Source: a virus | Virus record (IMG/VR): IMGVR_UViG_3300032085_001143 | Span: 1-34,823 of that record | Direction: 5' to 3' (one strand) | Length of the DNA stretch: 34,823 nt | In this document: one piece after another, positions 1-31,827 of the stretch | Numbering within the stretch: the stretch's first letter is position 1 | Layout: every line of letters begins with the position of its first letter | Notes under the pieces: model-generated | Seen by the model: the letters and a program-made list of their open reading frames with translations, nothing else | What the model was told of the DNA's origin: nothing | The model's database searches: none | Translations under genes and position numbers: made by a program

Positions 1-194
1 TATAAAACCCATATAGCTTTGGCCATAGTTTTTCTAGCCGACGTGTTTTGGTTAACTCTTGAAGCTATACCACTGTCTGGATCAAGCAGTTGCTTAGTAA
101 GCATATCAAGCTTTTCGTCCATCTTGTCTAGTTTTTGATCCATTTGATCCATGCGCTGTTTCATTAAAGCTATTTCTTTATCTACTGATTCCAT
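1..194 (-). CDS. Small coiled-coil protein, partial (runs off left edge); possible XhlA/holin-accessory type
   Basis: An open frame begins with ATG at 194-192 and stays open for 64 codons to the window edge, so the C-terminus is missing. Residues 8-36 form a strongly amphipathic heptad pattern rich in Met, Asp, Lys and Leu (for example MDQMDQKLDKMDEKLDML), which is a clear coiled coil. The basic stretch SARKTMAKA and then hydrophobic IWVL follow just before the cut, as if a membrane segment were starting. A short coiled coil followed by a membrane helix is the plan of XhlA-type haemolysin and holin-associated phage proteins, and T7 also places its holin gene near the tail genes. The gene lies 69 bases downstream of the giant internal-protein gene, in the same direction. 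That it is a real gene is fairly safe; the lysis role is a guess because the membrane part is outside the window. Confidence 0.6.
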   Translation of the reverse strand, partial: MESVDKEIALMKQRMDQMDQKLDKMDEKLDMLTKQLLDPDSGIASRVNQNTSARKTMAKAIWVL

Positions 195-263
195 TATCTT
201 ACTTATAATTACCCGCGTGCTACACACACTTAACTTAGCAGTTTCCTTATATAGTTACGTGCT

Positions 264-3200
264 TTATAATCCTTTAAACTTGCTTTTCTTTTTTCTTTTT
301 TTTCTGCTATCTTTTTGCTTTTGTTCTTTTACCTGACTTTTGATATTTTCCATTTTTTCGTTTTCAATATCTAAATTGTATTGACTCCAACCGAAGAACA
401 TCATAATTCTCTCCATAGCCTCGTGATCTTTATTAAACGCTTGTCTAACATTTTGAACTTTGTTGTAAACTTTGTTCAAAGGTAAGTTAACAACTTCAAA
501 GTAACTTGTTACAGCAGGCCATATAGGATTATCTATATCAGATAACTCCATGTGTTCAATTACATCTTTGTTATAGTTAAGTGTTTTTTCAGCGTTAACT
601 ATTTTTCTAGCCTTGATTCCTAAAGGTGGAGATACGTCTAACGCGGCTCTTAAAGTAGCACTTTCGTCTTTGTTATAAGTTTTTCCTCTTTCTTTAGTCC
701 AAGCTATGGCCACGTTTTTAACCGTAGCGACAATGGCGCCGTAAATACCAGTACCTCTTAAAACACTATCAATAGCGCCGTTAACAGCGTACTCATACTT
801 TCTATTTCTGCTTTTTATTTCTTTTTCAGTTTCTTCTTCATCATCGTCAAGCATAGCCATAAACAAAGCTGTCTGCAAAGCGTAGAATACCATATTTTGT
901 ATACCTATATAGTAAGTTAATCTAGCGATATTAGATATATCGCTTTGTAGTTGAGTTTCGTTAGGCTTTGTTATCCTTCTATTTTTAAGATCTAAAAATG
1001 CTTTTTTACCTAATCTGTTAAACTGAGATGTTACGTTTTGAAACGATAGTATAAACTTACCTACAGCTGATCTTTGTTGAGCTGAAATCATGTCTTCTCT
1101 TGCGGACTGCTGTGTAGATTGAGTTAACTCGTTAAAATCGTTCCAAGCAGCTTCTTCGGCTTGTTTTTGCGTTAAACCTTCTTTTACATACTTATTTATT
1201 CTATTTCTATAATAAGTGGCGCCACCAGTAGATATTGCAATACTATCACCAATTTGCGTAGGAGTAAAACCTAAAGCTAACAGTTTCTTAATAACCATAC
1301 GCATTGGAAACCTAGAGTTAGATACGGTTTGAACAAGCTCAGCACCGTTAACGTCTGTTTGTATGCCACCACGCCTTTGCTTCATCATGTCTGAGTTAAA
1401 TATATAAGCCCAGTCTTTCCAATACTGCTTTTGATTAGCAAAAGCTTTAGCCATTGCAAGCAAGTTATTTTCAGCAAAGTTCATGTAGTTTACAATAGAC
1501 ATTTGCTGTAGTAAAGAGGATCTCATATTGAAGAACATAACCGTACCAACCGCTCCGTTTATAAAGTTAACAAAAGCATTTACGATTTTATTCTGTCCTT
1601 GAGGTCTACGCTCTCCAGTTCTTATAGAGTAAAGCATGTCTTCTATAGACTCTCTAACACTTCTACCATAGGCAGCTTCTATTTTGTTTAAGTTTTTGTT
1701 TGAAAATATTTCGTTAGCATTTTCAACAAACTCAGTGAAGTATTGACCTCTACCAACTTTACCAGTAGCATCTAGCAAATCAGATCTTATATCACCAGCG
1801 TCCCATGACTCTGTAGGCGGTATGTAACCATCAACTCTTGATATGATCTCTACGGCATTGGCGTAAACTTTTAATACTGGATCAAGGTTTACATATTCGT
1901 TAAGCATATCTTGATCTTTTTTGCTTAAACCTGGAATATCATAACCGTTCTTAGTCCATATATAAACTCTTATAGCATCTTCAAAAGTAAAATCACCGTC
2001 GGCTGTTTTCTTTTTTAGCTTGTTTTTTATATCTTTATAGTTTTTGTTTAAAGCTTTAAAATCGTTTGCTATAGATTGTTTAGCAGCATCTAGCTCTCTA
2101 TAAGCTCTATTTAAAGGTCTTATTAGCGCAGCTTCAAAAAAGTCTCTATGTCTATTACCTTCAGCACCTTTACCTAAGAAGTTGTATATCAAACCAACAA
2201 AGTCTTCGTGTGAAGGTGGTATAAAAAATCTAAACTTGCCCTTATCGGCTCCACGTTTTCTAGCTTTTATATCGCTAAATCTTTTCTCAGCCTCTATACC
2301 AGTAACAGTTTCTAATATACTGTTAAACTCTTGATCTAAACTTCTACTAAATTGAACCTTAGCCTGTACTGATTTACCTTTAACATCTAACTGATCAAAT
2401 ATGTTCTGCACAGCTTCAACGTTTGGTAACGCGTCATCTACAAAGTACATGTCATTATAACCTTCCGCGTACTTTTCTAGCATCCATAAAGCTTTCGCTT
2501 CACCTTTACTGTTACCTAAACCTGTTATGTTTTCAAAAGGTATATTGATACCTTGTGTTTTAAGCCACTCATGTATCGGTTGTGCGGCTTCTTGCATACG
2601 AGCCGTAAGTACAAACACGTTGTCAGGACCATATTTTTTTATTTGATTTTTCATCTTTTGCAAAAGTGGACCTTCTTTACCACCTCTTACATTTACAAAA
2701 TCTGAAAAGTCAAACTCCCAACCTTTGTCTGCGTATATTGGACCGTCTATAGGCCACTTATCAGACGGTATTCTAACTGTTTCACCGTCTTTAGTTGCTG
2801 TAACAAAGTTTTCGCCGTCTATAATTAGCGTTTCGTCAAAGTCAAACGTAGACATACCTCTTGAAGGTCTTTGCTCTCTAGAAAACTTTATAGCTTGCTT
2901 TAGCGTTCTAGAGTTTTGTATTTTTACTTGAGACTGCAGCTCTTGACTTACAGCTTGAGCAAACTTTTTTGCTTGAGACTTGTTTAACAAGTTGAAGTCT
3001 GACTTATTAAACTTGCTACCATCTATTCTAGGGGACATTCTAAACTTAACGCTGTTTCCAGCCATCGGAAGCCTAGCTACTAGCTGAATTTTATTTTTTC
3101 CAGCTTCTAATGTTGGTACACCAAGCTTACTTGCTATTGCAGCGCTTAAATTGTCAACGTTGTCATTACCAGTCTTCATACGATAAAACTGTTGGCCTAC

Positions 3201-6200
3201 TTGTATAAAGCCTTGAGGCATGTTAGCGTAATTACCGTGTGCGTAATGCCATGTTAAATAATCTAAGTCTACTTCTATGCTAGTACCGTACTTGTGCTTA
3301 TTATCTCTTAAAAATTTAACTTGCTCGTTTGATAAAGCATCTTTTGTTAACGGCATACCAGCATTTTCTAAATCTTGCTTTATTTGAGAATACACCTCTT
3401 TTAACTGATCACCAATTATATCGTCAAACAAGTCGCCGTCTTCGTTTCTAATATCGTTTTTATTACTAAAGTCTAGCTTACCGCTTAAAAACGCTGCTAT
3501 AGTTTGAGAAACACCTCTAGCTTTATCAAGCTTAGACTCTACGCCAACAAGCAAATTACCAAGACCTAAGTAAACGTCACCTTTTCCTCTTAGTGATTCT
3601 AATCCAGTTCCTTTTAAAAACGACTCTACAGTAGTTCTTATACTGTCTTCTAGAGCCATGCCTATATTTATTCTTTTACCCGCCCTGCTAGATTTAACTA
3701 TTCTTTTAACTAAGTCTAGCTTTAGCTTGGGATCTTTAGTATCACCGTAGTTTTCTTTGCCATACGCGTTATGGAAATCGTATATTATTCTAGCGGCAAT
3801 AGCTTTATCTTCATTGGAGTGCTCTCTTTTACCTACTGTTTTGTCTTTCTTCCTGTGGTATATAGGAACTTTTAGTTTATACTTAGGCTTTTTACCTTTC
3901 TCATATATTACCTCAACTATGTCGCCTATAGTAACTTTATCACTTGCTAAATTTTCTAGTATATCAAGAGTGTTGTCTGCTAAACCATCAACAACTTGCT
4001 CTCTTGAGAACATTATAGTTGCATCTCTACCTATAGCTGAAGCAAGCTCTTGTATTTCTGCTTGATAATTATCAGACTCATCTATACGCTCTGAAACTTC
4101 TTCAGACTTTCTAGCCTGCATCGTAGCGTCTTTAACTAAAGATACAGCCATAGCTTTTGCAATACCATCTTTTCTAGTACCTTTCAAACCTGATCTAGCT
4201 CCAGTTTCAGGATTTATAGCTGGTTGGTCAGCATAATCTACTAGCTCTGCTTCAGTAGGTATTCTACGCTTGTATAAGTTTACAGCTTGACCTTTGTCTA
4301 TTTTATTTAAAGCGTCTGGAGGTAACAAGTCTTTTCTAACGGCATCTTGAACGTCTTGTTTAGAAGTTAGTTGTCTTACAAACGTAGTAAATATTCTTTG
4401 GTTCTCAGGTACTTTTCTTTCCATTTGAACAAGATCTGCTACAGATATTCCACTAGGCCCAAATATAGCTTCTCTATATTCTTTTAAATTTTTAATATAG
4501 TCTTTTGTGCCTAAGAAGTTTTTTAAAGGCTTGAACGCATCGCTAGTAAGTCCTTTTGAAAAGTACTCATCATGCAGCATATTTTTTATAGCTTTAGCTC
4601 TTTGTGTAGCGTCTTTTATGTTCAGCGTTTTTCTATAAGCCAACACTAAACTTTTCTTAGTAGCGTCAAGCAGTTTGGTATACATATCACCGCCAGTTTC
4701 AAAGCCAAGTATTTTTCTAAGCTTAGAAGTTTTTTCTGCAGTTTCAGTTCTTTTTCTCATTTGACCTGCTACAGATAAATCTTCTGTTTCTAGCGCTTCT
4801 AGCTCAGCATCTGTCTCTGCAGCAACTTGTACTTTAACTTCACCCTCTTGTGTTGTCTCGCCTATGTCTCTAGCTCTACCAGCAGCTGTTTGATCAACCT
4901 TATATTCTCTGTTGTATACATTACCAGCTTTGTTAGCTATTTGAGAGTTTAAATAACCAAAGAAATCGTCGTTTTGCTCAGGGTTAAAATTCTTAGCATG
5001 CGAAGTTAATTCAGAGTATACTTTATCTACAAAGTCTTTAGGTACGCTTTCGCCTTTAAACTTAGAAGCTATTAAATTATCAAGATAACCTTCGCTTTTT
5101 ATTTTGTTATATATGTCGTCAAAGCTAGCGTCAAACAAAAGCTTACCAAGACCTTTTTGTCTAAAGTTATCACCTACTAAACCTTCTTGTCCCAGACGTT
5201 GAACTTCAGACTGAGCCGTAGCTCTTTGCTCAGCAGTCATAGAAGGTTTAACAGTTTTATCACCTGTCAAATCTTGCTGCTCAGCAAACTCCATTATTTC
5301 TTTTCTATATATACCTTCTTTTGAGTCAGCTACTATAGCGTCTAAAAAAGCTTTTGTATCTGCCCCTGTTTCAAAAGATATTTTTTTAAACTCAGTGTTT
5401 TTGTTGAAAAATTTAGAGAAAAACTGTCCAACTTTAGATAAGTCTAATTGTTCTTGTTTAGATAACTGAGCATAAAAGTTTATGTACTCTTCACCATATT
5501 CTTTGAACTCTTTGTCGGAGCCATCTTCATTTTTTCTATACTTACCAGCATCTAGCTTTTTGTCTAATCTTTTTCTTTGAGATCTAGTAAGCGTACTTAA
5601 AAAATCTTTAACTATTTTTTCTCCTTCTTTGCTAAGGTTACCACTACCATCGTCTTCTTGAAGCGTAGACTTTAGCAAGCCATGTAAAACTTCATGCGTA
5701 CCTGTTGCAGTAGCGTTTCTTTCCGCAGCTACCTGAGCGTTTACTAATAACTTGCCTCCAACCTTTAGGCCGTCTATAGTATATTTTCTACCTGACTTGT
5801 CTTGAGTAGCATTTATAAAGTCTTGTTCTGTTCCACCTTGTGCTAATATTTCTGCTTTCAAAGCAGCTAAAAAGTCTTCTTCTGTTTTGTAAACCTCTTG
5901 CTCTAAACCTTTCATAGCACTAACAAGCTGACCGCTAGCGTCAAGATCTTGCTGTAGCTTAGACATATTAGCGTCGTTCTTTATAGTAGTGATGCCTTTG
6001 TTATATCTAGACATCTTTTCGTTAAACGCCTCCATACCAGCGTCAAACTGCTCTTTTGTTATAACACCTTTTTTATATAAAGATTTTAAATCTTTTATTT
6101 CTTTTCTAGTGTTTCTTAAGTTGTCTACAAGATTGTTTAATCCGTCTTCTTGATTTTTACTTAAATAGTTCGATAAATCTTTATTAGATTCTAAATACTC

Positions 6201-7673
6201 TTTTAGCTCTGTTTCTTCAATTTGTATTAAGTCTTCGTATTTCTTTTTTCTTCTCTTGCTTGTAGATCTAGCTTTAGCGTCAGCGTATGCGGCTATTCTA
6301 TTTATTCTTTCATTTATAAAAGCGCTACCACTTTCGTCATTTCTTAGTGCTGCGTTTATCTTGCTACCTCCAGCAGACACAGCGGTACCACCAATTAAAC
6401 CGGCAAAGTATTGGTCCCAAGCTTCTTCAGTTGTCATGTAGCTTCCAACATCTTTAATAGCGTCTTCAAAAGACATACCTTTACCTATGTTCTTGTTCAT
6501 GCGCTCAGAAAGTCCTTGGCCATATTCTGTAAGGCCTTCTTTGTTTCCAGTTACAAATAAAGAAAAAGCTTTTTTACCTTTAAAAGATCTTTTCATTATT
6601 TCTTTTGTCAATCCTTTGTAGCCAGCTCTTTCTAAAGCATATCCAAGGGTTGCGAAGGCTGCGGGAGTAGCTAATTCATCTTGACCGCTAGCTATAAGCT
6701 TTTGAAAAGCCTCGGGATCATCTTCACCGTATATTGATTTAGCTTTTTCAAGATTATAATCATGATACGACATCCCACCCATTTGAGCAGCCATTGAAAT
6801 ACCGCCAGTTAGCCAACCCGCAATAAGCTGTTCCCCTGAGTCTTGAATAAAATTTGCAGATTCTAAAATAACGTCTCCAACTCTTCCGTTTTTTACAGCG
6901 TCAAGAAACCCTTTACTATCCGTGATCTTATTTTTAGACATTTTGGCAGTTAGCTCTAAGCTTTTTTTATGCCTGTCAGCCATAGCTTTAGCATAATTAC
7001 TTCTAACAGTTTCAGCTGAACCATCGTCATTTATAAAAACTTGCTCAGCAGGCATAAAGTTTTTTTGCAAGCCTCTTTCGCCTTCAGCGTATCTAGGCGT
7101 ATTTTGCATTTTTCTTACAAGCTCGTAATACTTTTTATTTTCAACAGCGTCGTGACCATCTCTTTTATAAGCTTCGCGATTAAAAGTTACAATCTCTCCT
7201 GTTTCAGCATCTCTAAGACCAGTCTTTCTACCGTCTATATCATGGTCTTTATCAAAGGCTGACAAGAAAAAATCAGCTGCTTGTTCGCCTGCCATAAACT
7301 CTATATAAGATCCTAAGCCTTCAGTCATTTGACTGGCTATTTGTTTCCAACGAGTAGGTCTATTTTCGTACAATCTTGAAGCGCCTTCTAAAAAACCTAC
7401 TTCATCTTCAGCCTGCTCTTCTGATATGTCGATGTCATCAAAACCGCTAAAAGTTTTTACGTTAGATGGGCTACTTGGAGATCCCAATGAAGTATTTACC
7501 GATGCTGATCCCATACTTCCTACGCTGGGAGTTATCGGCCCCGCAGTTGCATCCATCACAGCGGCGCCTTCTTGCTTTTCCAATGGCTGAGCATTTGGAA
7601 ACTTTGATAAAAACTCGTCTAATCTGTCTGGAGCAAATTGATATACTTGCCCATTAACTTCGTATTGTAACAT
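264..7673 (-). CDS. Giant multidomain (polyvalent-type) internal virion/ejection protein, 2469 aa
   Basis: This is the last gene of the ejection block and is probably carried in the virion, like T7 gp16 or crAss-like cargo proteins. Seen in order: a disordered Gly/Ser/Pro-rich stretch near residues 40-75; hydrophobic helices near 275-310; long charged helices near 480-600; a zinc-peptidase motif, H660-E-V-L-H664, with a possible third ligand at E728 or E729; a helical region near 835-930 faintly like sigma-70 region 2; an F-S-R motif at 1222-1224. A HAD-like phosphatase domain then has D1611/D1613 in FDFDETL, T1690 in FVLTAR and D1746-D1747 in FVDDALPN. It is bracketed by F-S-R at 1597-1599 and 1775-1777. 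The rest (about 1800-2440) is helical with hydrophobic patches and resembles the LPD38-type domain of polyvalent proteins. The C-terminus is very Lys-rich. One base separates it from the upstream gene. Internal location and enzymatic activity are inferred. Confidence 0.85.
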   Translation of the reverse strand: MLQYEVNGQVYQFAPDRLDEFLSKFPNAQPLEKQEGAAVMDATAGPITPSVGSMGSASVNTSLGSPSSPSNVKTFSGFDDIDISEEQAEDEVGFLEGASRLYENRPTRWKQIASQMTEGLGSYIEFMAGEQAADFFLSAFDKDHDIDGRKTGLRDAETGEIVTFNREAYKRDGHDAVENKKYYELVRKMQNTPRYAEGERGLQKNFMPAEQVFINDDGSAETVRSNYAKAMADRHKKSLELTAKMSKNKITDSKGFLDAVKNGRVGDVILESANFIQDSGEQLIAGWLTGGISMAAQMGGMSYHDYNLEKAKSIYGEDDPEAFQKLIASGQDELATPAAFATLGYALERAGYKGLTKEIMKRSFKGKKAFSLFVTGNKEGLTEYGQGLSERMNKNIGKGMSFEDAIKDVGSYMTTEEAWDQYFAGLIGGTAVSAGGSKINAALRNDESGSAFINERINRIAAYADAKARSTSKRRKKKYEDLIQIEETELKEYLESNKDLSNYLSKNQEDGLNNLVDNLRNTRKEIKDLKSLYKKGVITKEQFDAGMEAFNEKMSRYNKGITTIKNDANMSKLQQDLDASGQLVSAMKGLEQEVYKTEEDFLAALKAEILAQGGTEQDFINATQDKSGRKYTIDGLKVGGKLLVNAQVAAERNATATGTHEVLHGLLKSTLQEDDGSGNLSKEGEKIVKDFLSTLTRSQRKRLDKKLDAGKYRKNEDGSDKEFKEYGEEYINFYAQLSKQEQLDLSKVGQFFSKFFNKNTEFKKISFETGADTKAFLDAIVADSKEGIYRKEIMEFAEQQDLTGDKTVKPSMTAEQRATAQSEVQRLGQEGLVGDNFRQKGLGKLLFDASFDDIYNKIKSEGYLDNLIASKFKGESVPKDFVDKVYSELTSHAKNFNPEQNDDFFGYLNSQIANKAGNVYNREYKVDQTAAGRARDIGETTQEGEVKVQVAAETDAELEALETEDLSVAGQMRKRTETAEKTSKLRKILGFETGGDMYTKLLDATKKSLVLAYRKTLNIKDATQRAKAIKNMLHDEYFSKGLTSDAFKPLKNFLGTKDYIKNLKEYREAIFGPSGISVADLVQMERKVPENQRIFTTFVRQLTSKQDVQDAVRKDLLPPDALNKIDKGQAVNLYKRRIPTEAELVDYADQPAINPETGARSGLKGTRKDGIAKAMAVSLVKDATMQARKSEEVSERIDESDNYQAEIQELASAIGRDATIMFSREQVVDGLADNTLDILENLASDKVTIGDIVEVIYEKGKKPKYKLKVPIYHRKKDKTVGKREHSNEDKAIAARIIYDFHNAYGKENYGDTKDPKLKLDLVKRIVKSSRAGKRINIGMALEDSIRTTVESFLKGTGLESLRGKGDVYLGLGNLLVGVESKLDKARGVSQTIAAFLSGKLDFSNKNDIRNEDGDLFDDIIGDQLKEVYSQIKQDLENAGMPLTKDALSNEQVKFLRDNKHKYGTSIEVDLDYLTWHYAHGNYANMPQGFIQVGQQFYRMKTGNDNVDNLSAAIASKLGVPTLEAGKNKIQLVARLPMAGNSVKFRMSPRIDGSKFNKSDFNLLNKSQAKKFAQAVSQELQSQVKIQNSRTLKQAIKFSREQRPSRGMSTFDFDETLIIDGENFVTATKDGETVRIPSDKWPIDGPIYADKGWEFDFSDFVNVRGGKEGPLLQKMKNQIKKYGPDNVFVLTARMQEAAQPIHEWLKTQGINIPFENITGLGNSKGEAKALWMLEKYAEGYNDMYFVDDALPNVEAVQNIFDQLDVKGKSVQAKVQFSRSLDQEFNSILETVTGIEAEKRFSDIKARKRGADKGKFRFFIPPSHEDFVGLIYNFLGKGAEGNRHRDFFEAALIRPLNRAYRELDAAKQSIANDFKALNKNYKDIKNKLKKKTADGDFTFEDAIRVYIWTKNGYDIPGLSKKDQDMLNEYVNLDPVLKVYANAVEIISRVDGYIPPTESWDAGDIRSDLLDATGKVGRGQYFTEFVENANEIFSNKNLNKIEAAYGRSVRESIEDMLYSIRTGERRPQGQNKIVNAFVNFINGAVGTVMFFNMRSSLLQQMSIVNYMNFAENNLLAMAKAFANQKQYWKDWAYIFNSDMMKQRRGGIQTDVNGAELVQTVSNSRFPMRMVIKKLLALGFTPTQIGDSIAISTGGATYYRNRINKYVKEGLTQKQAEEAAWNDFNELTQSTQQSAREDMISAQQRSAVGKFILSFQNVTSQFNRLGKKAFLDLKNRRITKPNETQLQSDISNIARLTYYIGIQNMVFYALQTALFMAMLDDDEEETEKEIKSRNRKYEYAVNGAIDSVLRGTGIYGAIVATVKNVAIAWTKERGKTYNKDESATLRAALDVSPPLGIKARKIVNAEKTLNYNKDVIEHMELSDIDNPIWPAVTSYFEVVNLPLNKVYNKVQNVRQAFNKDHEAMERIMMFFGWSQYNLDIENEKMENIKSQVKEQKQKDSRKKRKKKSKFKGL

Positions 7674-7674
7674 A

Positions 7675-9204
7675 TTAAAAGTCTGTTTGAATTTTAACTG
7701 GTTGTCCTTCGCTATTATACGTGTAACCAGGTCTTAGATCGGCTATTAAATCTTTCTCTTCTTTTGGTGGTGCGGGTGGTTTAGGTACTACATAACCTAC
7801 AGTTTCGTCATAGCCAAAGTTAGCAGCTAACTGCTCTTGTGTAGTAGCTTCGTACTTTCCAGTAGTAGTGTTATAATAAAAGTAATTACCGTTTTCTTTT
7901 TTCCAGTTTATACCGTTCCAAGCTGTCTGTGCTGGAATATTTTTTTCTTCACTAAGCAGTTGCTTAACGCCAAAGTCTATTTTATCTTTTGGAACGTACT
8001 GGTTAGCTATATAGTATTTATCTGAACCTGAAGCTTGGTTTTGCTTTTTGCCATATATGCTGTTACCCATCTGCCACTGTGATCTACCTTCACCATCAAT
8101 TAAAAAGTCTATATAAGCTTGTTTAGTAGCTGAAGGATCGTAATTAGGGTGTGTCTTATCTGTTAGTACGTTTACAAATTTAGAAGCGTCTTTTGAAAAG
8201 TCTGTGGCGTCTATATCGCCATCACCATCTACGTCTAACGATTTATCTGTAAACTGAAATTTGCTATTTAGCAAGCCAAACATCTGAGCAGACTCTTTAG
8301 TATCAGCTGAAGTTAAAGCATCGTAAAATGATTTTTGTTGCGTGCCAAACTTTTCTCTAAGCATTGAACCTACTGTTCTTTCGTTTATTAAATCGTTTAA
8401 ATTATTTCTTAATTGACTTTGCGTGTTTTCGTCCCAAGCCCCACCGCTTTTACCAGTATTATACATCATTTGAGTAAGCTTAGCCGCTTGTTCTTTAGTC
8501 TTAGGATCTTTCATAACCATAAGGTTTTTTACAAACTCAATATCACCCTGCATAGGTTTACCGTACTTGTTGTTTTTTACATTGCCATCTTTGTCTAAAA
8601 AACTAATAATTTCGTTACCGCTTTCGTCAAAGTCTATTTTAGTACTACCTATAACTTCGCCTTTAGCATTTTTAACTTCACCACCACCTGCAAAAAACGT
8701 GCTAAAAAAGTTATTAGAGTCTTCACCCATCATAACGTGATCAAGCCCGCCTTCTATAAAAGAAGATTTAGCTTCTTGCATTACGTTATCTATTTGAGCT
8801 AAATTAGCGTATATCTTATCTTCTTTACGTCGGTTAGCTCTCATTTGCTCTCTACGATCTTTAGATAAAAAACCCGTTTGACTTCTTATTTCTTCACGCT
8901 CTTGCTTTATGTTTTCTAGCTGTTGCTGTAAAGTTTCAGTTTGACCCTCAAAATACTTGCCGCCAGCTTGTATTAACTCATCTTGTTTTTTAGCCTCAGC
9001 TATAGCCGTACCAGCCGCTGCGCCTGCTGCTTGAGCTGCTCTTGCAATACCTGCGCCAAGTTGACTCATGCCAACAGCGTAAGACTGTGCTATATTATTA
9101 AATATTCCTGATAAATCTTTTGGTACACCAGCATACGCCGCCCTTGTTGCGGCGCCAACTAATGTGGCGTCAGCTTTACCACCAAATCCTTGCATCTTTG
9201 CCAT
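7675..9204 (-). CDS. Putative internal virion protein, 509 aa, with dockerin/EF-hand-like calcium loop
   Basis: I do not recognise a full-length family. The N-terminus (about residues 40-75) is Ala/Gly-rich and helical (for example AAQAAGAAAGTAIAEAKK), which would suit membrane insertion or bundle packing. Residues 85-150 are Gln/Glu/Arg-rich and predicted coiled coil. Residues 324-335 read DVDGDGDIDATD, with Asp at loop positions 1, 3, 5, 9 and 12 and Gly at 6. This is the classical EF-hand/dockerin calcium loop, with the final Asp replacing Glu as dockerins allow. A Pro-rich piece near 475-485 precedes a short tail. Position is the main functional clue: it lies between a coiled-coil S74 protein and the giant multidomain protein, with one base on either side, the slot taken by gene 15 in T7. 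A role in the ejection apparatus is therefore inferred. No catalytic motif is visible. Confidence 0.8.
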   Translation of the reverse strand: MAKMQGFGGKADATLVGAATRAAYAGVPKDLSGIFNNIAQSYAVGMSQLGAGIARAAQAAGAAAGTAIAEAKKQDELIQAGGKYFEGQTETLQQQLENIKQEREEIRSQTGFLSKDRREQMRANRRKEDKIYANLAQIDNVMQEAKSSFIEGGLDHVMMGEDSNNFFSTFFAGGGEVKNAKGEVIGSTKIDFDESGNEIISFLDKDGNVKNNKYGKPMQGDIEFVKNLMVMKDPKTKEQAAKLTQMMYNTGKSGGAWDENTQSQLRNNLNDLINERTVGSMLREKFGTQQKSFYDALTSADTKESAQMFGLLNSKFQFTDKSLDVDGDGDIDATDFSKDASKFVNVLTDKTHPNYDPSATKQAYIDFLIDGEGRSQWQMGNSIYGKKQNQASGSDKYYIANQYVPKDKIDFGVKQLLSEEKNIPAQTAWNGINWKKENGNYFYYNTTTGKYEATTQEQLAANFGYDETVGYVVPKPPAPPKEEKDLIADLRPGYTYNSEGQPVKIQTDF

Positions 9205-9205
9205 A

Positions 9206-10171
9206 TTAATTTATTTTTTTAAAGTCAACGTCTAGCATTGAGTAGTTAACCATCTCGTACCCGTCAGGGTGCATTATAACGGCTTCTCTCGGCACTTCGT
9301 CAGACATAACACCTTGATGTACTCCAGAGCCATGCTTAGCGTCTATATATTCAAAATTATAAACAGGTATACCGCTAGATGAGTTAAACACGTGTTCTAT
9401 GTTTTTCTTTAATTTTCTATCTGATGCAGCGGCAGCTCCAGCGCCTGAAGCAACACCACCGATTATTTGACCAAACATGCCCATACGAGCAGCGTGCATT
9501 TGAGCACCCATACCTATAGCAGCCATTTGGTTACCAAAAGCAGCTTGAACGCCTGCGTTAGCACCGCCGTAATCACCAGCTGACATACCTAATAATGTAG
9601 ACTGTCTACTAATTTCTGCGCCTTGCAGCATTGCAGCACCACCTCTTTCTGCCATATCAGCAGAGGCAGCGCCTTGAGCTACGGCTTGCTGTATTTGCAT
9701 ATCCGTTTGACGCTGCATTTGATCTATTTGTTGACCAGCTTGAGCAGCCATCATTGCGTTTTGTCTTTGCTGTTGAGCTATATCTACAGAAGCTTGTCTA
9801 GCAGCCATAACACCTTGATTAGCTAAGGTTTGTGCTAAACCAGCTATACCTGAAGTACCAGCAGCACCTGTCAACGCTTGTAATATGTCAGCTCTTTGCT
9901 GTGCTGATTGCTCCATCTGAAAGTCTGCTGCAGCTGTGGAAACTTGAAGCTCTTCAAATCTATTTTCCATGCCTTCATACGCGTTCTTAAGATCAGCGTA
10001 ATAGTTTTGCATGTTATCGTAAGGATTAAAAAACTCCATTTGCTCATAATCAGCTTGTCTAGCTTCATACTTTTGCATAGCTTCTCTTTGCAGCTGTGTA
10101 TTGTAGTCGAACTGCCTGTCAGCCTGCGCTTGAGCTTGTCTTTGTATTTGTCTGTTTCTTCTGCCACCCAT
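9206..10171 (-). CDS. Putative internal virion protein with C-terminal S74 (endosialidase chaperone) domain, 321 aa
   Basis: Residues 1-245 are Gln/Ala/Met-rich and strongly helical, typical of a coiled-coil core protein. From residue 250 comes a Peptidase_S74 intramolecular chaperone domain: SDRKLKKNI with Ser250, Asp251 and Lys255, then PVYNFEYID and HQGVMSDEVP. The Ser to Lys spacing of five equals the known autocleavage pair of endosialidase chaperones (Ser911/Lys916), so self-release of the last 72 residues just before Ser250 is plausible. The start chosen is the ATG at 10171-10169 (protein begins MGGRRN). It leaves a one-base gap after the upstream stop, like neighbouring junctions. An in-frame ATG at 10213 would add 14 residues and overlap the upstream gene by 41 bases. 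S74 domains normally end tail spikes and fibres, so the combination with a coiled-coil, presumably internal, protein is unusual. By order it matches T7 gene 14. Confidence 0.85.
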   Translation of the reverse strand: MGGRRNRQIQRQAQAQADRQFDYNTQLQREAMQKYEARQADYEQMEFFNPYDNMQNYYADLKNAYEGMENRFEELQVSTAAADFQMEQSAQQRADILQALTGAAGTSGIAGLAQTLANQGVMAARQASVDIAQQQRQNAMMAAQAGQQIDQMQRQTDMQIQQAVAQGAASADMAERGGAAMLQGAEISRQSTLLGMSAGDYGGANAGVQAAFGNQMAAIGMGAQMHAARMGMFGQIIGGVASGAGAAAASDRKLKKNIEHVFNSSSGIPVYNFEYIDAKHGSGVHQGVMSDEVPREAVIMHPDGYEMVNYSMLDVDFKKIN

Positions 10172-10172
10172 A

Positions 10173-10589
10173 TTATATATATTTAAATGCTTCGTAAGAT
10201 GGTCTACTTTCATCTACAAACCATCGTAAATCTTTATGTGTTTGTCTTAAATATTTATCGCCACATACAGTGAACATGAACTTCACGCCCTGTTGCTTAG
10301 CTTTGAACTCTGTGTTTGTTATGAATAATCTCATTAGCTTCTTTCTGTTTGGCCCTTTGTAATTTGGATTTGAAACTATCCACGTTAAGTAACCTATAGG
10401 TGCATTACTACCTAAAAACAAAAAACCCATAAACACAGGTGTATTTTCGTGCTCTATTACGTAACAGTTTTCATCGTTAGGTAATATTTCTTTTTCTATG
10501 CCTGTTTCATCTTTCCACCACCATTCCCACCATCTGCAGGCTTCTTCATAATCGCCTTGTTTAAACGATCTAAATACTACATTATCCAT
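10173..10589 (-). CDS. GNAT-like protein, T7 gp13-like position, 138 aa
   Basis: The small mixed alpha/beta protein begins with a GNAT-style strand and helix (VVFRSFKQGDYEEACRWW) and continues with strands like CYVIEHE and PVFMGFLFL, then a loop and helix (RKKLMRLFITNTEFKAKQQG). This is the order expected in N-acetyltransferase folds. A consensus acetyl-CoA loop of the Q/R-x-x-G-x-G/A type is not clearly present, so enzymatic activity is doubtful. Five tryptophans lie within residues 20-25 (WWEWWW), which is very rare. T7 gp13, a protein needed for assembly of the internal core, is also about this length, has been noted as acetyltransferase-like and sits in the same position ahead of three internal protein genes. 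The role in virion assembly is inferred from that order. A 41-base leader rich in A and T precedes the ATG. Confidence 0.75.
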   Translation of the reverse strand: MDNVVFRSFKQGDYEEACRWWEWWWKDETGIEKEILPNDENCYVIEHENTPVFMGFLFLGSNAPIGYLTWIVSNPNYKGPNRKKLMRLFITNTEFKAKQQGVKFMFTVCGDKYLRQTHKDLRWFVDESRPSYEAFKYI

Positions 10590-10630
10590 TTAATTAAATT
10601 TATATGTAGTATAGTTACATTTATTGCTTT

Positions 10631-10984
10631 TTATTTACTGCTTTCCACTATGTTAGCAGTAACGCCAAACAGCTCTGCTCTAACAGCTTTATTGTTTGTC
10701 ATAGTTACGTCCATGTAATAACCTCTAACATTAGACTTGTTAGCGGGCTTAGTAAACAATAAAAAAGCACCTGTAGGAACTTCAGTTAACTCTGGGTTAT
10801 CAACTACTATACTACTATCTTGTAATATTTCACTAACAGAGCCTATCAACGTGGGATCACCAACTGTCTGTTGATAAGATCCACCGCTTTCGCTAGAAAC
10901 AGTTTCTGTTTGTTGAAAATACAAAATATCTCCAACTTGAAGTGAAGAAAAATTTTGCGAGTCTGTATTTATATTTATTATCAT
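10631..10984 (-). CDS. Putative virion structural protein, 117 aa
   Basis: I know this only as the type of short beta-rich protein common near tail genes of marine phages; no named family is claimed. The first 40 residues contain a strand-turn-strand unit (LQVGDILYF) suggesting a small beta barrel. The middle has IGSVSEILQDSSIVVDNP. The C-terminal third (NVRGYYMDVTMTNNKAVRAELFGVTANIVESSK) looks like an alternating strand pair ending in a short helix. There is no signal peptide and no membrane segment. Its start overlaps the stop of the upstream 426-residue gene as ATGA, a four-base overlap that usually means translational coupling. A tail accessory or fibre-attachment part is the simplest reading from its place between the nozzle-associated gene and the ejection genes. 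Confidence 0.7.
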   Translation of the reverse strand: MIININTDSQNFSSLQVGDILYFQQTETVSSESGGSYQQTVGDPTLIGSVSEILQDSSIVVDNPELTEVPTGAFLLFTKPANKSNVRGYYMDVTMTNNKAVRAELFGVTANIVESSK

Positions 10985-12261
10985 GATGCTGCTCCTGGTG
11001 TTATAAGTTTATCTAAGTCTATATTAATTATTGTATCAGAAGTAGGGTATGTGTTAATTCTTATAGAAGCCTCTAAAGTCATTTGCTTAAAAAATTTACT
11101 AAAAAATATATCGCCTCCAGTTTTTAAAGGTCCTATAGCAGAGCTTAAAGTTACTAAGCCTTGAGAAGAGCTAACTGTAGTTACAGCGCTAACTGTAGGA
11201 GATCCTGATATTCCAGGTCCACTAACAACAGCACCAGCACCTATAAAATAAGTTCCGTTTAAAGCTACCTTAGTGCTAGACGCGTCTGTGGCTTCATCAG
11301 CTATGCCGGCGTCTGCTCTAACAGTTTTAGACGTTGGGTTATTGATAGTTCCATCAGACAAAACAGGATCAACTCTAAGTCTAGCTTCAGATCTACCGTC
11401 TATTATAGCGCCAGACATTTGCTGTATAATGTCATTACCATAACCTCTAAAAGTTAAAGTAGCGCCATCACCAGCTGTTTGAGTTTGAGATAAGCTTATA
11501 GTGTTTGCTGCCGTGTCAATTGATTTTATATAAGGGTCAGTTCCATTTACACTTCCGCCGCTGATGTTTGTGAGTATTGCTTCAATAGCTAAACCCGAAA
11601 CGTCATCTAATTTTATTGTAAGAGAAGAACTTGCCGCGCCATCTACAGTAACTGTTTTTTCGTAATAATAAATTCTATCTTGTATTCCTTTTGCTAAAAG
11701 AGTTGGATAACCGATAGGTGTAGTGTTAGCACTTAATCCAAAAGCGTTGTCATCGTGGCTTCTGTTTACAAGATCGTAGTTGGCTTGAACAATTACTCCA
11801 GAGACAAGTCCAGGACTTCCTACGCTTGTTACGTCTGTTGCTGCTGGGCTGGAAGAGTATGTGTTAGCGTTATCAGTGGCAACTCTAAAAGTTACAGTGA
11901 CATCGTTTATTTGTGATATTTTTTTATTTATAACGTTTACAACTTTATTATTTAATAGTATTTCTGTATTATCGTCAGGAGTTAATAGTAAAACTTGATA
12001 GTCTGTAGTAGAGCTTGAAGGAAACCTAATATTACTAGAATATTCAGGTGATTTCATTTCGTGTACAAAATTACACTCTGGAGTAAAGCTAGACACAAAA
12101 GACTTTGTTGTAAAATTGTAAAAGCTTTGTGTTGATGTTTTTATTATTTGAAGCATAAATACGGCACCAACGTCTCCAGACACAGTAAACACCCTAGTTT
12201 GCGCAGCGGCTGCTAGATCACTAGTATCTATATCAAATAATGTAATTTGTTTTTTACTCAT
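10981..12261 (-). CDS. Putative tail-associated structural protein, 426 aa
   Basis: The whole chain is rich in Ser, Thr, Asp, Gly and Val and predicted to be nearly all beta, as in tail accessory and fibre proteins. The N-terminal 150 residues (starting MSKKQITLFDIDTSDLAAA) hold several regular strands. Residues 150-200 include a polar motif NRSHDDNAFGLSANTTPIG. Later regions have repeated short strands with Gly/Thr turns (ISGGSVNG, GAGAVVSGPGISGSP). The C-terminus returns to regular strands (TLEASIRINTYP). No enzymatic motif is seen. The first eight bases overlap the end of the giant nozzle gene, and its stop overlaps the next gene, so the three are probably translated in a coupled way. It could be a nozzle cap, a fibre adaptor or a decoration protein; I cannot decide from sequence. 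Confidence 0.75.
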   Translation of the reverse strand: MSKKQITLFDIDTSDLAAAAQTRVFTVSGDVGAVFMLQIIKTSTQSFYNFTTKSFVSSFTPECNFVHEMKSPEYSSNIRFPSSSTTDYQVLLLTPDDNTEILLNNKVVNVINKKISQINDVTVTFRVATDNANTYSSSPAATDVTSVGSPGLVSGVIVQANYDLVNRSHDDNAFGLSANTTPIGYPTLLAKGIQDRIYYYEKTVTVDGAASSSLTIKLDDVSGLAIEAILTNISGGSVNGTDPYIKSIDTAANTISLSQTQTAGDGATLTFRGYGNDIIQQMSGAIIDGRSEARLRVDPVLSDGTINNPTSKTVRADAGIADEATDASSTKVALNGTYFIGAGAVVSGPGISGSPTVSAVTTVSSSQGLVTLSSAIGPLKTGGDIFFSKFFKQMTLEASIRINTYPTSDTIINIDLDKLITPGAAS

Positions 12262-15200
12262 CTATAAATTCTTCATCATCACTACTAGTAGCAACGCTAT
12301 TAATAACACCTAATCCTTGCATAACAAAATCTTCGTATTGCAAATCACCTATATCTTTGCTCTGTATTCTTCCAAACCACTTACCTTCTTTCTTGCTAAA
12401 CTCAGATACCAAGCCTTTTTCTAAGTCTGTACTCAAGCTACTTACTGCCCAGCCATTTAAATCTGTCTCAAAACTAAATTTACCTGGATCAACAAAAGTT
12501 TTACCTTGTGTGCCTTCGTAAGATATGTTTCTAAATGATTTCACAGTTTCTGGAGCAACGTTAAATATAAAATTAACATTACTACTATATTGCTCTTCAT
12601 AGAAATTACATCTTAGTGCAAAGCGATGATTGTGCTCGTATAATCTTGCTTTGTCAAAAGTATAGTATTTTTTAGAAACACTAACACCATGCTCAGGTAT
12701 AAAAGACTTAAAACTAGTCCAACCTTTTGCTGTCTCACTAAACGAAACTGTTTTTGAAACGTAATTTAGCAGTTGTCTCTGTAAAAACATGTTATCAATG
12801 CTTCCGTTAACAACACCTGTTTTACTTCTAACAACTAAAGTGTCAGCTAAATATCCAAGACCTAAGTCAACTTCGTCTTGCCCAATAGTAACTTGTTGGC
12901 TAAACGTGCCAGTTCCACCGTCGTTTATTTCTAATATAAAGCCTTGACCAAATTTATTAAAGTAGTAGATTTCAACAACACCTGTTAAATTAGTGTGAGA
13001 AAAACTTATATCATACGTATCACCTTTTGTAAATTGACCTACAACTTGTTCGACTTGTATTCCTTCTATTACGCTAGAGGTCGGAGCGTCATTAAACGTT
13101 ATAGCATCTAAATCATCATCAAAAACAATGTAATCGAAAGTGCTTTGATTAAAGCCGCTAAACGACCAACTGTCTATGCTATTACCTGTAAAATATTGAG
13201 TCGCGTCCGTTAAAGAAATACCGTTTATTTTACCTACAAAACCGTTTGCGTCATCTGGATAAAAAGCAACTTTTCCATCGTCAGTTGATCCTGTTGTGTC
13301 GTTTAAAATAACTTCTGTAGTATTTGCTATGGCTGTAGTTGAAACTTCTTCACTGTTAAAAACTCTAGTAACAGTTACGTTAGAAACGTTATCAAAATTA
13401 CCTCTTACAGTGTAAATACCAGGCTCAGTTACGTTCGTAACGCCAAAACCATAGAAAGTGCCAGTTATATTTGGTTGAGTAACGTAAGCGTTTACAGCGC
13501 CTTGTATACCGCCAGGATAATCAGGATTTTCTTCTACCGTAAACTTAAAGGCATAGCCTTGAGCAGTTACTAAAGGATTCCAGTTAGAAGGTATAGCCCA
13601 TGATTGAGCAAAGTAATATCCGTTGCTTCCGGTAAAATTTTCTTCAAAACTACTATTAGGCACGCAGTAAAAATTAGCGCTGTCGCCACCGTAGTATATT
13701 TCAGGACTTTCGTACTGATAACCTGTTCCGTCAAGCTCAGTTGTTATCAAATGCGTTAACGCGTGTGGAACTTGATAGTTAGCGCTGGGCGTATGAAAAT
13801 CAGTAAATTCACCGCTAGTATTTTGCTCTGTTATATCTATAACATCTATTCTGTTTACTAAACCTCTTCTACCGTAAATTTGAAGAACCGTTTGATCGTC
13901 TCCGTAGTTTGAGTGAGCTGCTGAATCATATTGAAATATTGTTCTAGCAACAGTTCTACCCGCAGTGTAATACTCACCTCCGGCGGCGCCGGCTGTAATA
14001 GTTGGCTTGCATACGTATGTTTTCGTAGAATTAGTATTAGAGCTTCCGCCAATAGAACCAAAGGTTCCTTTAGGATAATTAACAAAGCCAGGACTGGTTT
14101 CGCTGTAGTGAGAAAGTCCGTACGCAGTCGTACCACCGGCAGATATAATAGCGTCATTTACACCACTATATCCAGCCGCTACAGCATCAGCGTGTATTAT
14201 ATCACCGTTAGCATTTAAAATATCAGAAGAGCCATAACCTGTTTGAATAACATCAGCGCTAATACCACCTACAAAAGCAATAGAACCCTCTATGTTCCAC
14301 TCTCCCGCAGTTCCTCTAGATGCCGGTTGGTTTCCAGGATCAACATCTTCATATTCCACGTCTAGCAGATACCAATGGCCATCTTGAAATTCACCATAAC
14401 CACTTTGCCTTATATACACGCTCGTAGCAGTTCCGTCTGTTTTATGGGCGTCTACATATATTTTGCTATCTGTATTTTCTGCATGAACAGTATAACCCAA
14501 ATCACTTTGTGGTGTAGGCAAGGTACCGCTTCCAGAGTTATTTGTTCCAGTTAAACTATAACTATTTGGATTACCGTTATTGTATTGCTGGTAAGTTGTC
14601 ACACCGTTGTTTGTGCCAGTGTAGTATGTAATACCGTGCTCTGTTACATAGCTACCAGGGTTTGGCGCCCCAAAACTAGGGTTTATCCAAGGAGCCGCCA
14701 CGCCGCTACCATCATCTAATGTCCACCTGGCATTATCTTTATAATAAACTTCAGACCAAGCAGGTATTGTGGTAGAAGGTACAGCTGGAACTTCTGCTTC
14801 AGCATCAATAACACCTACAAATTCACCTGTGCCTACTTGAGTGGTAACGCCCTCTTCCGCTATTGCAGGCCCACCTGGATTTACTAACTCCCTTACTTTT
14901 TCAAATTTAATACTAGTAAGCCAAACTTCTAAATCGTCAACACCCCAGCCAGATGGAGCGGCATCATCGTCAAGATCGGTGTTTGGATCAACAAACCATT
15001 GAGGCCTTACGCCAAACTTAGTGAGTATTGGCTCTGTAGAAATATTATTGTTTACATAGTTAGCCGTATAGTCGCTGCTAGACTTATTAGGATCTTTAAA
15101 CATTATGTAAGTAATAAACTCTCTTTCAGTATTGTCTGGGGCGCTATTAATTGAAGCACTAGGCATAACTGTAGCAGAGCTTCTAAAACCGTAGTTTCTA

Positions 15201-18200
15201 TATGTACCAGTTGTAGATGTTTGAATACTGCTAGCAGGCTCACTTGTTATATCACCCAATGTGCTACCCATGTTGTCTACGTCCATAACATAATCTGACA
15301 TTCCAGCCCCACTATTATTAGCACCTATTAAGCTCATGTAGAATTTTAAATAACCTGTTAAAAAGTTATCATTAGTGTAGTTGGCTGAAGCTTTGAATTT
15401 TATTGTTATTTTAACTACTTCTGTTTCAAAAATAGTCATATTAGTAGCTGCTGGATACGAAGGTCCCTGAGGTGTAGTGTTGTTTAATACTTGCGGCGCA
15501 ACAGCTGTATTAGGTATTCCACTAATTGTTCCACTAGCATAACTAACAGGAATATTCATATAAGGCCTCATTTGGCTTGCTTCAGATACAAAAGGACTCC
15601 AACCAGAAAATCCAGGAGAATAAGAGCTATTGTCCCAAGTCGTGTAGCTAAAACCTACTGTGCTTGTAACACCAGTTGTAGCGCCAGCTGCAACGCTCCA
15701 ATCAGCAGCCCAAAGATCACCAGTACCATTGTTAGTTGAAACTGTAGGATTACTAGCGGCATTGTTAGAGGCAGAAGTAGTATTCCACTCGTATATTACA
15801 GTACCATTAGACCAATCACTTGACGTGGTAAACGTAGCATCTGTTTCTTGTATAGCTTCTTGTGTAACAGTATAAACATCTTCTAAAACTTCCGTACCTG
15901 GATCACCTTCAATAGGTGCTACGTACTGTTGAAAATATCCTTGAGGTATTTCTGGCCAATTAGTCACAACTACCACAGAGTCAAGCCTGTTATTGGAAAT
16001 TAAATTTAAATTGTTGTATTCACTATTACCATCAGCACTTAAAAAGTTTTGTTGAACTAAATTATTGTTATAGTTTGTTCCAACTATATTATTACCGTTT
16101 AACACTCTTTCTACTGGATCAGAAGTTAAACTAGATATTCCAACACCATCTTCGTCAAACTCAGAGTTTTGTATTAAGTTCTCTTCAACTCTTTCTTTTA
16201 GCGTTAAGTTGTAAACGCCTGTGTATTGATCGTAAGTTCCTAATAAAGCTTGATTTTTAGGTAAGTTATCTCTAAACCAATCTTTCATGCCGATGTCGGA
16301 TATAGGCGTTATGCCGTCCATAGATAACCTTAAAACTGCACCTCTAGCCTTATCAGCAAAATAAGCTCTGTAAGAATCTGAAGCAAAAGACTCAGGGTTT
16401 GTAGATATACCGTAATCACCAACAAACGGCACTGCTTGACCTAAAACATTTTCAGAAGCCGTTAGCTGTGGGTTGCCATCAGCATTAAATACAGCGTCTT
16501 TATTTGCAAGTATCTTGACAACTCTATCTTCACAAAAAGATACTAGATCTGTTGATCTTGAAAAAAGCTTCTGTATACTGCCGTAGGTAGGATTTATATC
16601 TTTTGTTATGTTTTGAGCTTGAATAAATTGATTTAAATTATTTACTTTAGAGTTTTGATTATATATTCCAGAGTATATTAAGCTATTAGTTAAAACCTCT
16701 TCTTTGTAAGGCTCGTCTGTAGTTGTTGATGCTTTAGCTCCATTAGTTATTTGCATAGTGTTAAAGTCATCTCTAATTCTATTAGACTCTACACCGTTTT
16801 CAAAACTAAAGCAATTAAACCAATTTAAACCTATAGGTGAATTGTCAGATATTTTTTGATTAATTATAAACCTTCGTTGTAATCCCACCGCATACTCTTC
16901 AAAATTCTGATTTGTGCTTTGACTTAAAATGTCAGCGGTTACGTAAGTACCATCGTCTCTTGTAAATCTAATCTTTCTACCACCATATTGTATTTCATCA
17001 CCGCTATCGTCATTTAAGTTTACTCCAGGTGTAATATATATATACGTGTAAGGATTGTTTGGGTCCTCTCTCCAGTAAAGTAGTTTTTGCGCATCTTCAG
17101 TGCCTTTCGTAGCGTCAGGAAAATCAGGAAAAGAAACTGTAGATTGTAAAGGCGCAAATGTTGATCTATTATTCTCTCTAATTTTTAAAGGTATATCATC
17201 ACTAGCTTCAAAATATATATTTAATTCTGGCAGCTGTCTAGGCTCTGTTTCCCAAATAGCAGAAACGCCAGTGTCTGCACCTGTGCTAGCTTGTGGAAAA
17301 GGCGAAACTATAGAAAAGTTTTTAGAAGTACTACTATCTATATCGCCATCGTTACCTGTAAATATATTTGTATTACTAACAGTGGGCTTTTTATCAAGCT
17401 CTAATATAAAACAAAGTCTTCTATTGTTAGCAGAGCCAAACTGTTGTATTTTATTTTTTAAATTTGTTTGTTTAGCGGCATTAGTTCTATCTATACCCCA
17501 CTCATGAGCTGCTTCTTCAACACTGTCTCCAGCCCAAACCCATTCTGTGCCGTTCCACTTTTTTCTAGCTCTCCAAGGCGTGTGATTGTACAGTTTAACA
17601 GATTTTTTATTTAGTATAGTATAAACCTCGCTGTCGCCTTGAAACTTTATTTTGCTATTTATATTAAGCTTTAGCAAAAAGCTATTTATAGAATCTGCTT
17701 GCTCGCTTGTAACACCGTAGGTGCAATCCCATTGTCTTTCGTGAAGTTCTAAATACTCTTCTTGTTTACCTGCAGAAGAATAGCCATAACCAAAAGTGTT
17801 TGGAACATTGTGCCCGGGCGGAGTCCATTTTCCAGAGATTAAATCATCAGACCACTCAAACGCTATGTGTCTAATGCCGCCGGGAAATACAGTGCTTGAG
17901 TAATCAGGCCTTGGGGTGATAGCTCCACCACCAAATATACCTTGCATCTGCCTTGATAAAGTAACATCTGCTAATTCTATTCCTGCATTATCATCTGTTA
18001 TTAAGTTGCTAAAGTTAATTGAGCCACTGTGCAAGTCTTTACCTGGAGCTAAGAAAGAAACGTGAATATAGTGCTTTCCTGTTTCATCGCCATAAAAACT
18101 TTTTAAATCATTTTTAGCTAAGCCATTAGAAGTAATATAAGAAAGTCCAGTCCATTGTTTACTTCCATTAACATGGCTGTTGTTAGTAGTGACAAAAGGC

Positions 18201-31549: not shown

Positions 31550-31827
31550 TACTTAGATCTTCCTTCAGCAAAGCCTTTAAACACTCTTTCTTTTTTTTCT
31601 TCAGGCTCTTTACCTTCTAATATGTTTTCTTCTTCTTGTATACGATTAAGTATTTCAAAAGCATCGAATATAGCTAGCTTTTTTGTAGCCGCAGCATTCT
31701 TTAATCTATCTGCAGATACATCATCTTCGCTATGAGTGATAATCTGTTCTTGAGCGACCTTAATCAACTCTTCTACAGCTTTATGCCCAGCTTGGATTAT
31801 ACTCTTCTTCGTTTCCTTTATATTCAT
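31549..31827 (-). CDS. Small helical protein, terminase small-subunit candidate, 92 aa
   Basis: The protein is almost entirely helical and charged (KSIIQAGHKAVEELIKVAQE, then SADRLKNAAATKKLAIFDAF and EILNRIQEEEN), ending with a basic tail FKGFAEGRSK. Terminase small subunits are short helical DNA-binding proteins coded directly before the large subunit, and this gene ends in the TAATG junction with terL. No clear helix-turn-helix can be claimed. The start chosen is the ATG at 31827-31825 (MNIKETKK), overlapping the upstream gene by 47 bases. An in-frame ATG at 31896 would overlap by 116 bases and add a 23-residue lead unlike the rest. The gene seems real, and the small-subunit role is a positional guess. 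Confidence 0.65.
   Translation of the reverse strand: MNIKETKKSIIQAGHKAVEELIKVAQEQIITHSEDDVSADRLKNAAATKKLAIFDAFEILNRIQEEENILEGKEPEEKKERVFKGFAEGRSK

Follow-up and report, generated by a model that had tools for sequence, protein, structure and literature searches.

Does a short motif repeated in a giant phage protein mark the borders of its domains, and is the protein cut there? The question is raised by P0001, a protein encoded in the linear virus record IMGVR_UViG_3300032085_001143 (34,823 bases, here called the window), which combines several domains in a single chain of 2469 residues: a putative zincin, a sigma factor region-2-like domain, a HAD domain and C-terminal regions. The original prediction had placed the tripeptide FSR at three sites of this chain, two of them at the edges of the HAD-like region, and had proposed that they were processing sites. 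All three copies were found at the predicted residues (tags 1 to 3 in Table 1), although the predicted interval, starting at window position 2349, misses the final two residues of tag 3. The analysis described below suggests that the motif marks the junctions of a phage polyprotein that processes itself and whose zincin recognizes the matching tag, with cutting at the tags probable.

A border motif in P0001 and its relatives

The first search with P0001 yielded 46 relatives, and more than 500 were found in environmental viral contigs; the named phages searched gave no match, so that there was no cultured relative to consult. In shuffled versions of P0001, FSR occurred on average 0.35 times, with a probability of 0.005 of three or more copies. 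For the longer form phi-x-F-S-R the mean was 0.07, and none of 5000 shuffles reached three. When 18 relatives were aligned, F1222/S1223 and S1776 were conserved amid otherwise unconserved stretches, and the last position of the tag was usually K. The true motif is thus broader than FSR. In this family it reads [ILVMA]-x-[FY]-S-[KR], most often as FSK, and some lineages have FSE or FSD. The exact tripeptide, which had been expected to recur in homologues, was therefore discarded as the conserved unit, FSK being the commoner form.

The form phi-x-[FY]-S-[KR] was present 186 times in a non-redundant set of 120 relatives, approximately 4-fold the shuffled value (47.6 ± 6.0), whereas the reversed motif appeared 27 times (46.4 in shuffled sequences). 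Across 332 further proteins encoded on the contigs of these relatives, the motif stayed at chance level (25 versus 18.3 ± 4.5), as did FSR (15 versus 15.5). The copies in these relatives mapped repeatedly to the sites flanking the HAD domain: 22 fell on P0001 residues 1590 to 1599 (the tag 2 site) and 56 on residues 1770 to 1779 (the tag 3 site). Within the family, motifs lay C-terminal of the zincin beyond what a control motif showed.

The starts and stops of pairwise homology (breakpoints) coincided with the motif. With the HAD edges excluded, and counting sites with at least 5 breakpoints, 66 of 132 motif sites in the P0001 family had breakpoints within 15 residues, compared with 17.0 ± 3.8 expected; at control motifs the values were near zero. 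In three relatives that carry an extra module after the HAD domain and before the C-terminal region (L034, L037 and L046), the FS motif was found again at the new junctions; L046 corresponds to positions 1 to 9774. In another relative, L028 (positions 4357 to 11491), the giant gene is split across frames, possibly by frameshifts or assembly errors. A highly conserved, tag-like sequence, IIFSxENLNKIEA, is also present at P0001 residues 1989 to 2000 and in relatives, inside the C-terminal region and at no evident border.

Domains and predicted structure around the tags

The HAD residues named in the original prediction (D1611-F-D1613-E-T1615, T1690 and D1746-D1747) were confirmed, and the last two FSR copies do bracket the domain closely (Table 1). 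In the 18 relatives D1613, T1615, T1690, K1727, D1746 and D1747 were invariant and D1611 was kept in at least 90%, giving the full HAD set of DxDxT, motif II Thr/Ser, motif III Lys and motif IV acidic pair. A sequence search alone found nothing for this domain. In an AlphaFold2 model built with 70 sequences, its core reached a predicted local distance difference test (pLDDT) score of ∼90, and its best VIA-align match was the T4 Pnkp 3'-phosphatase (5uj0; Z, 13.4; 2.5 Å over 127 residues), the next four matches being likewise Pnkp. By residues and modeled fold, the domain thus appears to be of the T4 Pnkp 3'-phosphatase type, with a predicted phosphatase activity. Because of this closest match, our guess would be that the domain heals ends against nucleases that cut tRNA or DNA.

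The tags themselves fell in poorly predicted segments. Tag 3 (residues 236 to 238 of the model) coincided exactly with a segment of pLDDT below 50, and tag 2 (model residues 58 to 60) ended a low-confidence helix just ahead of the first HAD strand. In a second AlphaFold2 model, covering residues 540 to 1262, pLDDT dropped below 50 from residue 1223 (model residue 684), that is, at tag 1. Tags 1 and 3 are thus at minimum confidence.

Upstream of tag 1, the HEVLH motif of the putative zincin is well preserved, H660, E661 and H664 being kept in at least 90% of the P0001 relatives. Residues 563 to 781 gave a weak fold match (Z, 4.6) to the zincin region of the N4 virion RNA polymerase (vRNAP; 9pnt, 2124 to 2364).

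The same motif in unrelated giant proteins

A second set comprised 57 non-redundant LPD38 proteins from proteobacterial genomes and viral contigs, none of which had a blastp match to P0001. FSR was nevertheless present 48 times in this set (20.7 ± 3.4 expected), and phi-x-[FY]-S-[KR] 38 times (15.2 ± 3.6). The stricter form phi-[KR]-[FY]-S-[KRL] occurred 16 times against 3.2 ± 1.8 expected, and its reverse once against 3.8. Among all tripeptides of these proteins FSR ranked 48th of 5745, high but not at the top, because conserved domains dominate the ranking.

As in the P0001 family, breakpoints clustered at the motif: with at least 2 breakpoints required per site, 27 of 53 motif sites had them within 15 residues (8.7 ± 2.6 expected), and control motifs again gave values near zero. 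Individual proteins illustrate the arrangement. In L308, [IL]RFSK is found at 750, 965, 1223, 1555 and 1963, parting a methyltransferase, an ADP-ribosyltransferase (ART)-type module and others. In L309, the Pfam domain ART-PolyVal (2109 to 2247) lies between tags at 2087, 22 residues before it, and 2256, 9 residues after it; similarly, LPD37 (185 to 435) of L166 lies between tags at 174 and 462. Breakpoints, the pLDDT minima at tags 1 and 3 and these unrelated polyvalent proteins all strongly support the original idea that the motif marks domain edges.

Tag dialects in proteins with an ART module

A third set comprised 67 proteins chosen by their ART module. Just after this module, at "(N/D)PDI-", an FSR-like sequence was present in only one third of them; the others had LNQ, LEQ, FQR, FAR, KSE, TASR, ESR and further tags, and the same tag was often also found ahead of the module in the same protein. 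Thus, tags differ between phages (IRFSR, NILNQ, IRKSE and TASR, for example) and repeat within one protein at both ends of the module. Whatever the dialect, the tag is often immediately preceded by an "(N/D)PDI" or "(N/D)PNI" adaptor that ends the ART module.

The exact four-residue tag recurred elsewhere in the same protein 16 times, compared with 1.6 ± 1.1 after shuffling. In the border test, performed on 65 of the proteins, a protein's own downstream tag was found at its upstream border in 23 cases (2.8 ± 1.6 permuted; maximum of 11 in 5000 permutations). The effect was not limited to [FY]S tags, since the remaining ones gave 17 of 44 (2.0 expected), nor to proteins with another ART upstream, whose removal left 21 of 61 (2.7 expected). 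Tags were called automatically, with a few evident misses, such as L417, which was called SEDR though FSLR precedes its ART. The matched tags were identical in 37% of their codons, 41% being expected; as this agreement is no greater than chance, tag identity is kept by selection on the protein. A survey of Bacteroidota genomes for ART-PolyVal gave two matches only.

Covariation of tag type and zincin clade

When the ART set was sorted by tag, each type was accompanied by its own zincins. LxQ tags go with "[ST]F[LI]HESGHFFLE", [RT][KRA]S tags with "SPLAVFGHE", xSLR tags with "LRHEAIHALKELGFFT" and FSR/YSR tags with "FHEALGHYGLRG" and "HEWWHALDNY". Zincin similarity predicted tag similarity with ART and C-terminus controlled (partial Mantel r, 0.26; P, 0.0005), whereas ART similarity was not a significant predictor (P, 0.06), though the tag abuts the ART. 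Pairs with similar zincins had a tag similarity of 0.53, compared with 0.14 for pairs that shared at least 200 homologous residues elsewhere but had different zincins. In the HExGHFF clade all 10 tags were Q tags, compared with 6 of 44 in the others (P, 3e-7 before any relatedness correction).

A held-out set of 32 proteins was then fetched by the HESGHFF zincin alone, dropping those already used. The predicted tag [IV]L[NEYHS]Q was found 21 times (7.1 ± 3.2 expected), and FSR showed no excess (8 versus 8.7). The opposite was true of the LPD38 proteins, in which LxQ was at its expected value (12 versus 12.0). An enrichment of LxQ in the P0001 family was dismissed as a signal, the reverse being enriched as well and composition accounting for it.

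In the P0001 family, the rarer tags were reused within a protein in 6 of 53 cases (0.8 expected; maximum of 5 in 5000), and the letters after FS were more uniform within proteins than expected (z, ∼3.3 and 3.5), which was not so for controls. Here the correlation between tag and zincin was weaker (r, 0.155; P, 0.001). That tags are protein specific and covary with the clade of the built-in zincin lends indirect support to the original proposal that the domain edges are processing sites.

Proposed explanation and its rivals

RNA viruses and retroviruses make polyproteins whose repeated, matching junction sites are cut by the virus's own protease. The system proposed here would differ in belonging to a double-stranded DNA tailed phage, in using a zincin and in having a site dialect that changes between phages. 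The giant protein would be made as one chain with its own zincin metallopeptidase, and the flexible linkers that bound the swappable modules would each contain a short tag. The zincin of the same chain or of a neighboring copy would recognize and most likely cut at the tag, so that modules separate before or after injection: here the Pnkp-like HAD 3'-phosphatase, elsewhere ADP-ribosyltransferases, kinases and methyltransferases. In each phage lineage a distinct tag would pair with the lineage's own zincin, FSR/FSK being one common dialect. We infer self-processing because a short signal recurs where modules meet, is preserved as protein sequence and is matched to a peptidase of the same chain.

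Several observations weigh against this reading. The link between zincin and tag is a correlation among partly related sequences, and in both the ART set and the P0001 family the tag also correlates with the C-terminal region, so that shared ancestry is not fully removed. In the LPD38 set, 15 of the 33 proteins with HExxH have no motif, the presence of HExxH does not clearly predict that of the motif, and a position C-terminal of the zincin is not special. The P0001 zincin, besides its weak fold match, is too divergent to be assigned to an ART-set clade (best similarity, 0.13); it therefore belongs to no clade with a known tag, and the case for P0001 draws on the weaker within-family evidence. 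Finally, P1 DarA and DdrB, reported as processed, have no FSR-type border tags, and N4 vRNAP has a zincin yet is packaged unprocessed (PMC5512222), though clear border tags are missing from it as well.

The principal rival, which we consider unlikely, gives the tag a docking or sorting role: the zincin or another co-inherited factor would bind it without cutting, for example to arrange the modules within the head or to initiate threading and unfolding through the tail. Docking would fit the border position, the repeat within a protein and the covariation with a co-inherited partner, and in N4 vRNAP the zincin region is kept, the protein is not cut in the virion, and the region is needed for encapsidation (PMC5512222). 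However, the best covarying partner has an intact HExxH, kept in at least 90% of the P0001 family, and a purely docking role would not need catalytic residues.

It is improbable that the tags are the target of another protease, be it a prohead protease of the phage or an enzyme of the host, and that the zincin link reflects only shared ancestry, even though P1 DarA is annotated as processed in head maturation and the tags correlate with the C-terminal region too. Proteins with long shared homology but different zincins have different tags, and the set selected by zincin alone carried the predicted tag. A prohead protease would be expected to act on further proteins of these contigs too, but those carry the motif only at chance, and a prohead protease site was ruled out on this ground.

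Equally poor prospects attach to inert tags, that is, preferred short junctions for module splicing by recombination or a common linker sequence: although tags coincide with module breakpoints, their serine is encoded by both TCN and AGY (AGY in 25 of 54 and 115 of 228 cases, about as elsewhere), codon choice is not shared between the matched tags of a gene, and the tag dialect switches in step with the zincin, the codon use ruling out a DNA recombination site.

Relationship to known systems

Self-processing by a zincin would be in keeping with an earlier proposal. Zincins have been proposed to process the polyvalent proteins of phages and conjugative elements into units (Iyer et al. 2017, PMC5512222), and the tags would provide the recognition sites that such processing has lacked; in the passages of that article consulted no recognition code was found, and its text did not mention FSR. 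A search of the literature outside subscription journals found nothing relevant on the motif. Like P0001, polyvalent proteins are giant and multidomain and are encoded next to virion genes; they carry a zincin, for which P0001 has a putative counterpart, and our comparison sets share with them LPD38, LPD1, LPD5, ART-PolyVal and MuF_C modules. P0001 differs in that no Pfam LPD or other polyvalent-type domain exceeded the threshold in it or in 17 relatives; a Pfam zeta-toxin/AAA-type kinase was detected in one relative. P1 DarA and DdrB are virion proteins, DdrB ending in a zincin and being reported as processed (PMC5512222).

The N4 vRNAP (gp50), a giant ejected protein whose zincin region is weakly resembled by that of P0001, had no clear border tags. 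Neither did gp47, gp49 and gp50 of phiCrAss001, which also lacked blastp matches to P0001. In that phage the giant genes after the muzzle encode virion cargo (gp45 to gp50; PMC10172136), and the main text of that article does not mention cleavage or proteases. FSR as a universal motif was ruled out by its absence from the P1 Dar proteins, the phiCrAss001 cargo and N4 vRNAP.

Other features of P0001 and the window

The minus strand carries all the main genes, namely those for the terminase, the portal, capsid-type structural proteins, a muzzle-type protein and smaller proteins, with P0001 last; its gene is thus grouped with virion structural genes, downstream of those for terminase, portal, capsid and muzzle. 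The order in phiCrAss001 is similar (terminase, portal, capsid, ring proteins, muzzle, smaller cargo genes and giant gene). P0001 and the other giant proteins are probably carried in virions.

Residues 814 to 935 of P0001 gave fold matches nearly all of which, at the top, were sigma factor region 2, the best being 4lup (sigmaE; Z, 7.2). From this modeled likeness, the domain might, immediately upon injection, direct the host RNA polymerase to promoters of the phage. Foldseek gave no usable match with the 723-residue model.

Table 1. Positions of the P0001 gene, its domains and its junction tags in the window
Feature	Residues	Window positions	Strand	Basis
P0001, giant multidomain protein	2469 aa	264..7673	minus	Open reading frame call and relatives
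Zincin-like metallopeptidase domain (HEVLH at 660-664, window 5682-5696)	∼563-781	5331..5987	minus	Conservation, weak fold match
Sigma factor region-2-like domain	∼814-935	4869..5234	minus	Fold matches
Tag 1, FSR (IMFSRE)	1222-1224	4002..4010	minus	F1222/S1223 kept in at least 90% of 18 relatives; pLDDT <50
Tag 2, FSR (IKFSRE), 7 residues ahead of HAD domain	1597-1599	2877..2885	minus	Alignment, model
HAD phosphatase domain (predicted)	∼1606-1770	2364..2858	minus	Invariant residues, AlphaFold2, VIA-align
Tag 3, FSR (VQFSRS), 5 residues past HAD domain	1775-1777	2343..2351	minus	S1776 invariant in 18 relatives
Conserved C-terminal region, beyond tag 3	1778-2469	267..2342	minus	Most conserved part of the family

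Elsewhere on the minus strand, the protein with a crassvirus muzzle C-terminal domain (2864 residues; window 12254 to 20848; PF25729 over the cut-off) is ∼2 times as long as phiCrAss001 gp44. The gene at 9206 to 10213 matches virion structural and DNA ejection PHROGs, with a weak Peptidase_S74 match below the cut-off, and a GroES-like co-chaperonin gene (phrog_13932; 31781 to 32362) adjoins the terminase gene.

Significance

Zincin processing has been proposed since 2017 without a substrate rule, and a repeating tag that follows the zincin would supply one. For hundreds of giant phage proteins that lack annotation, it gives predicted cut sites and divides the modules at known places. We see about an even chance that the rule is general, in which case many tailed phages unrelated to one another would carry giant virion proteins that are self-cutting polyproteins, each with a zincin reading lineage-specific border tags, module swaps would need the resident dialect, and dialects would stop cross-cutting between coinfecting phages. 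If true, this would reveal how phages acquire and exchange early-infection effectors inside a single gene.

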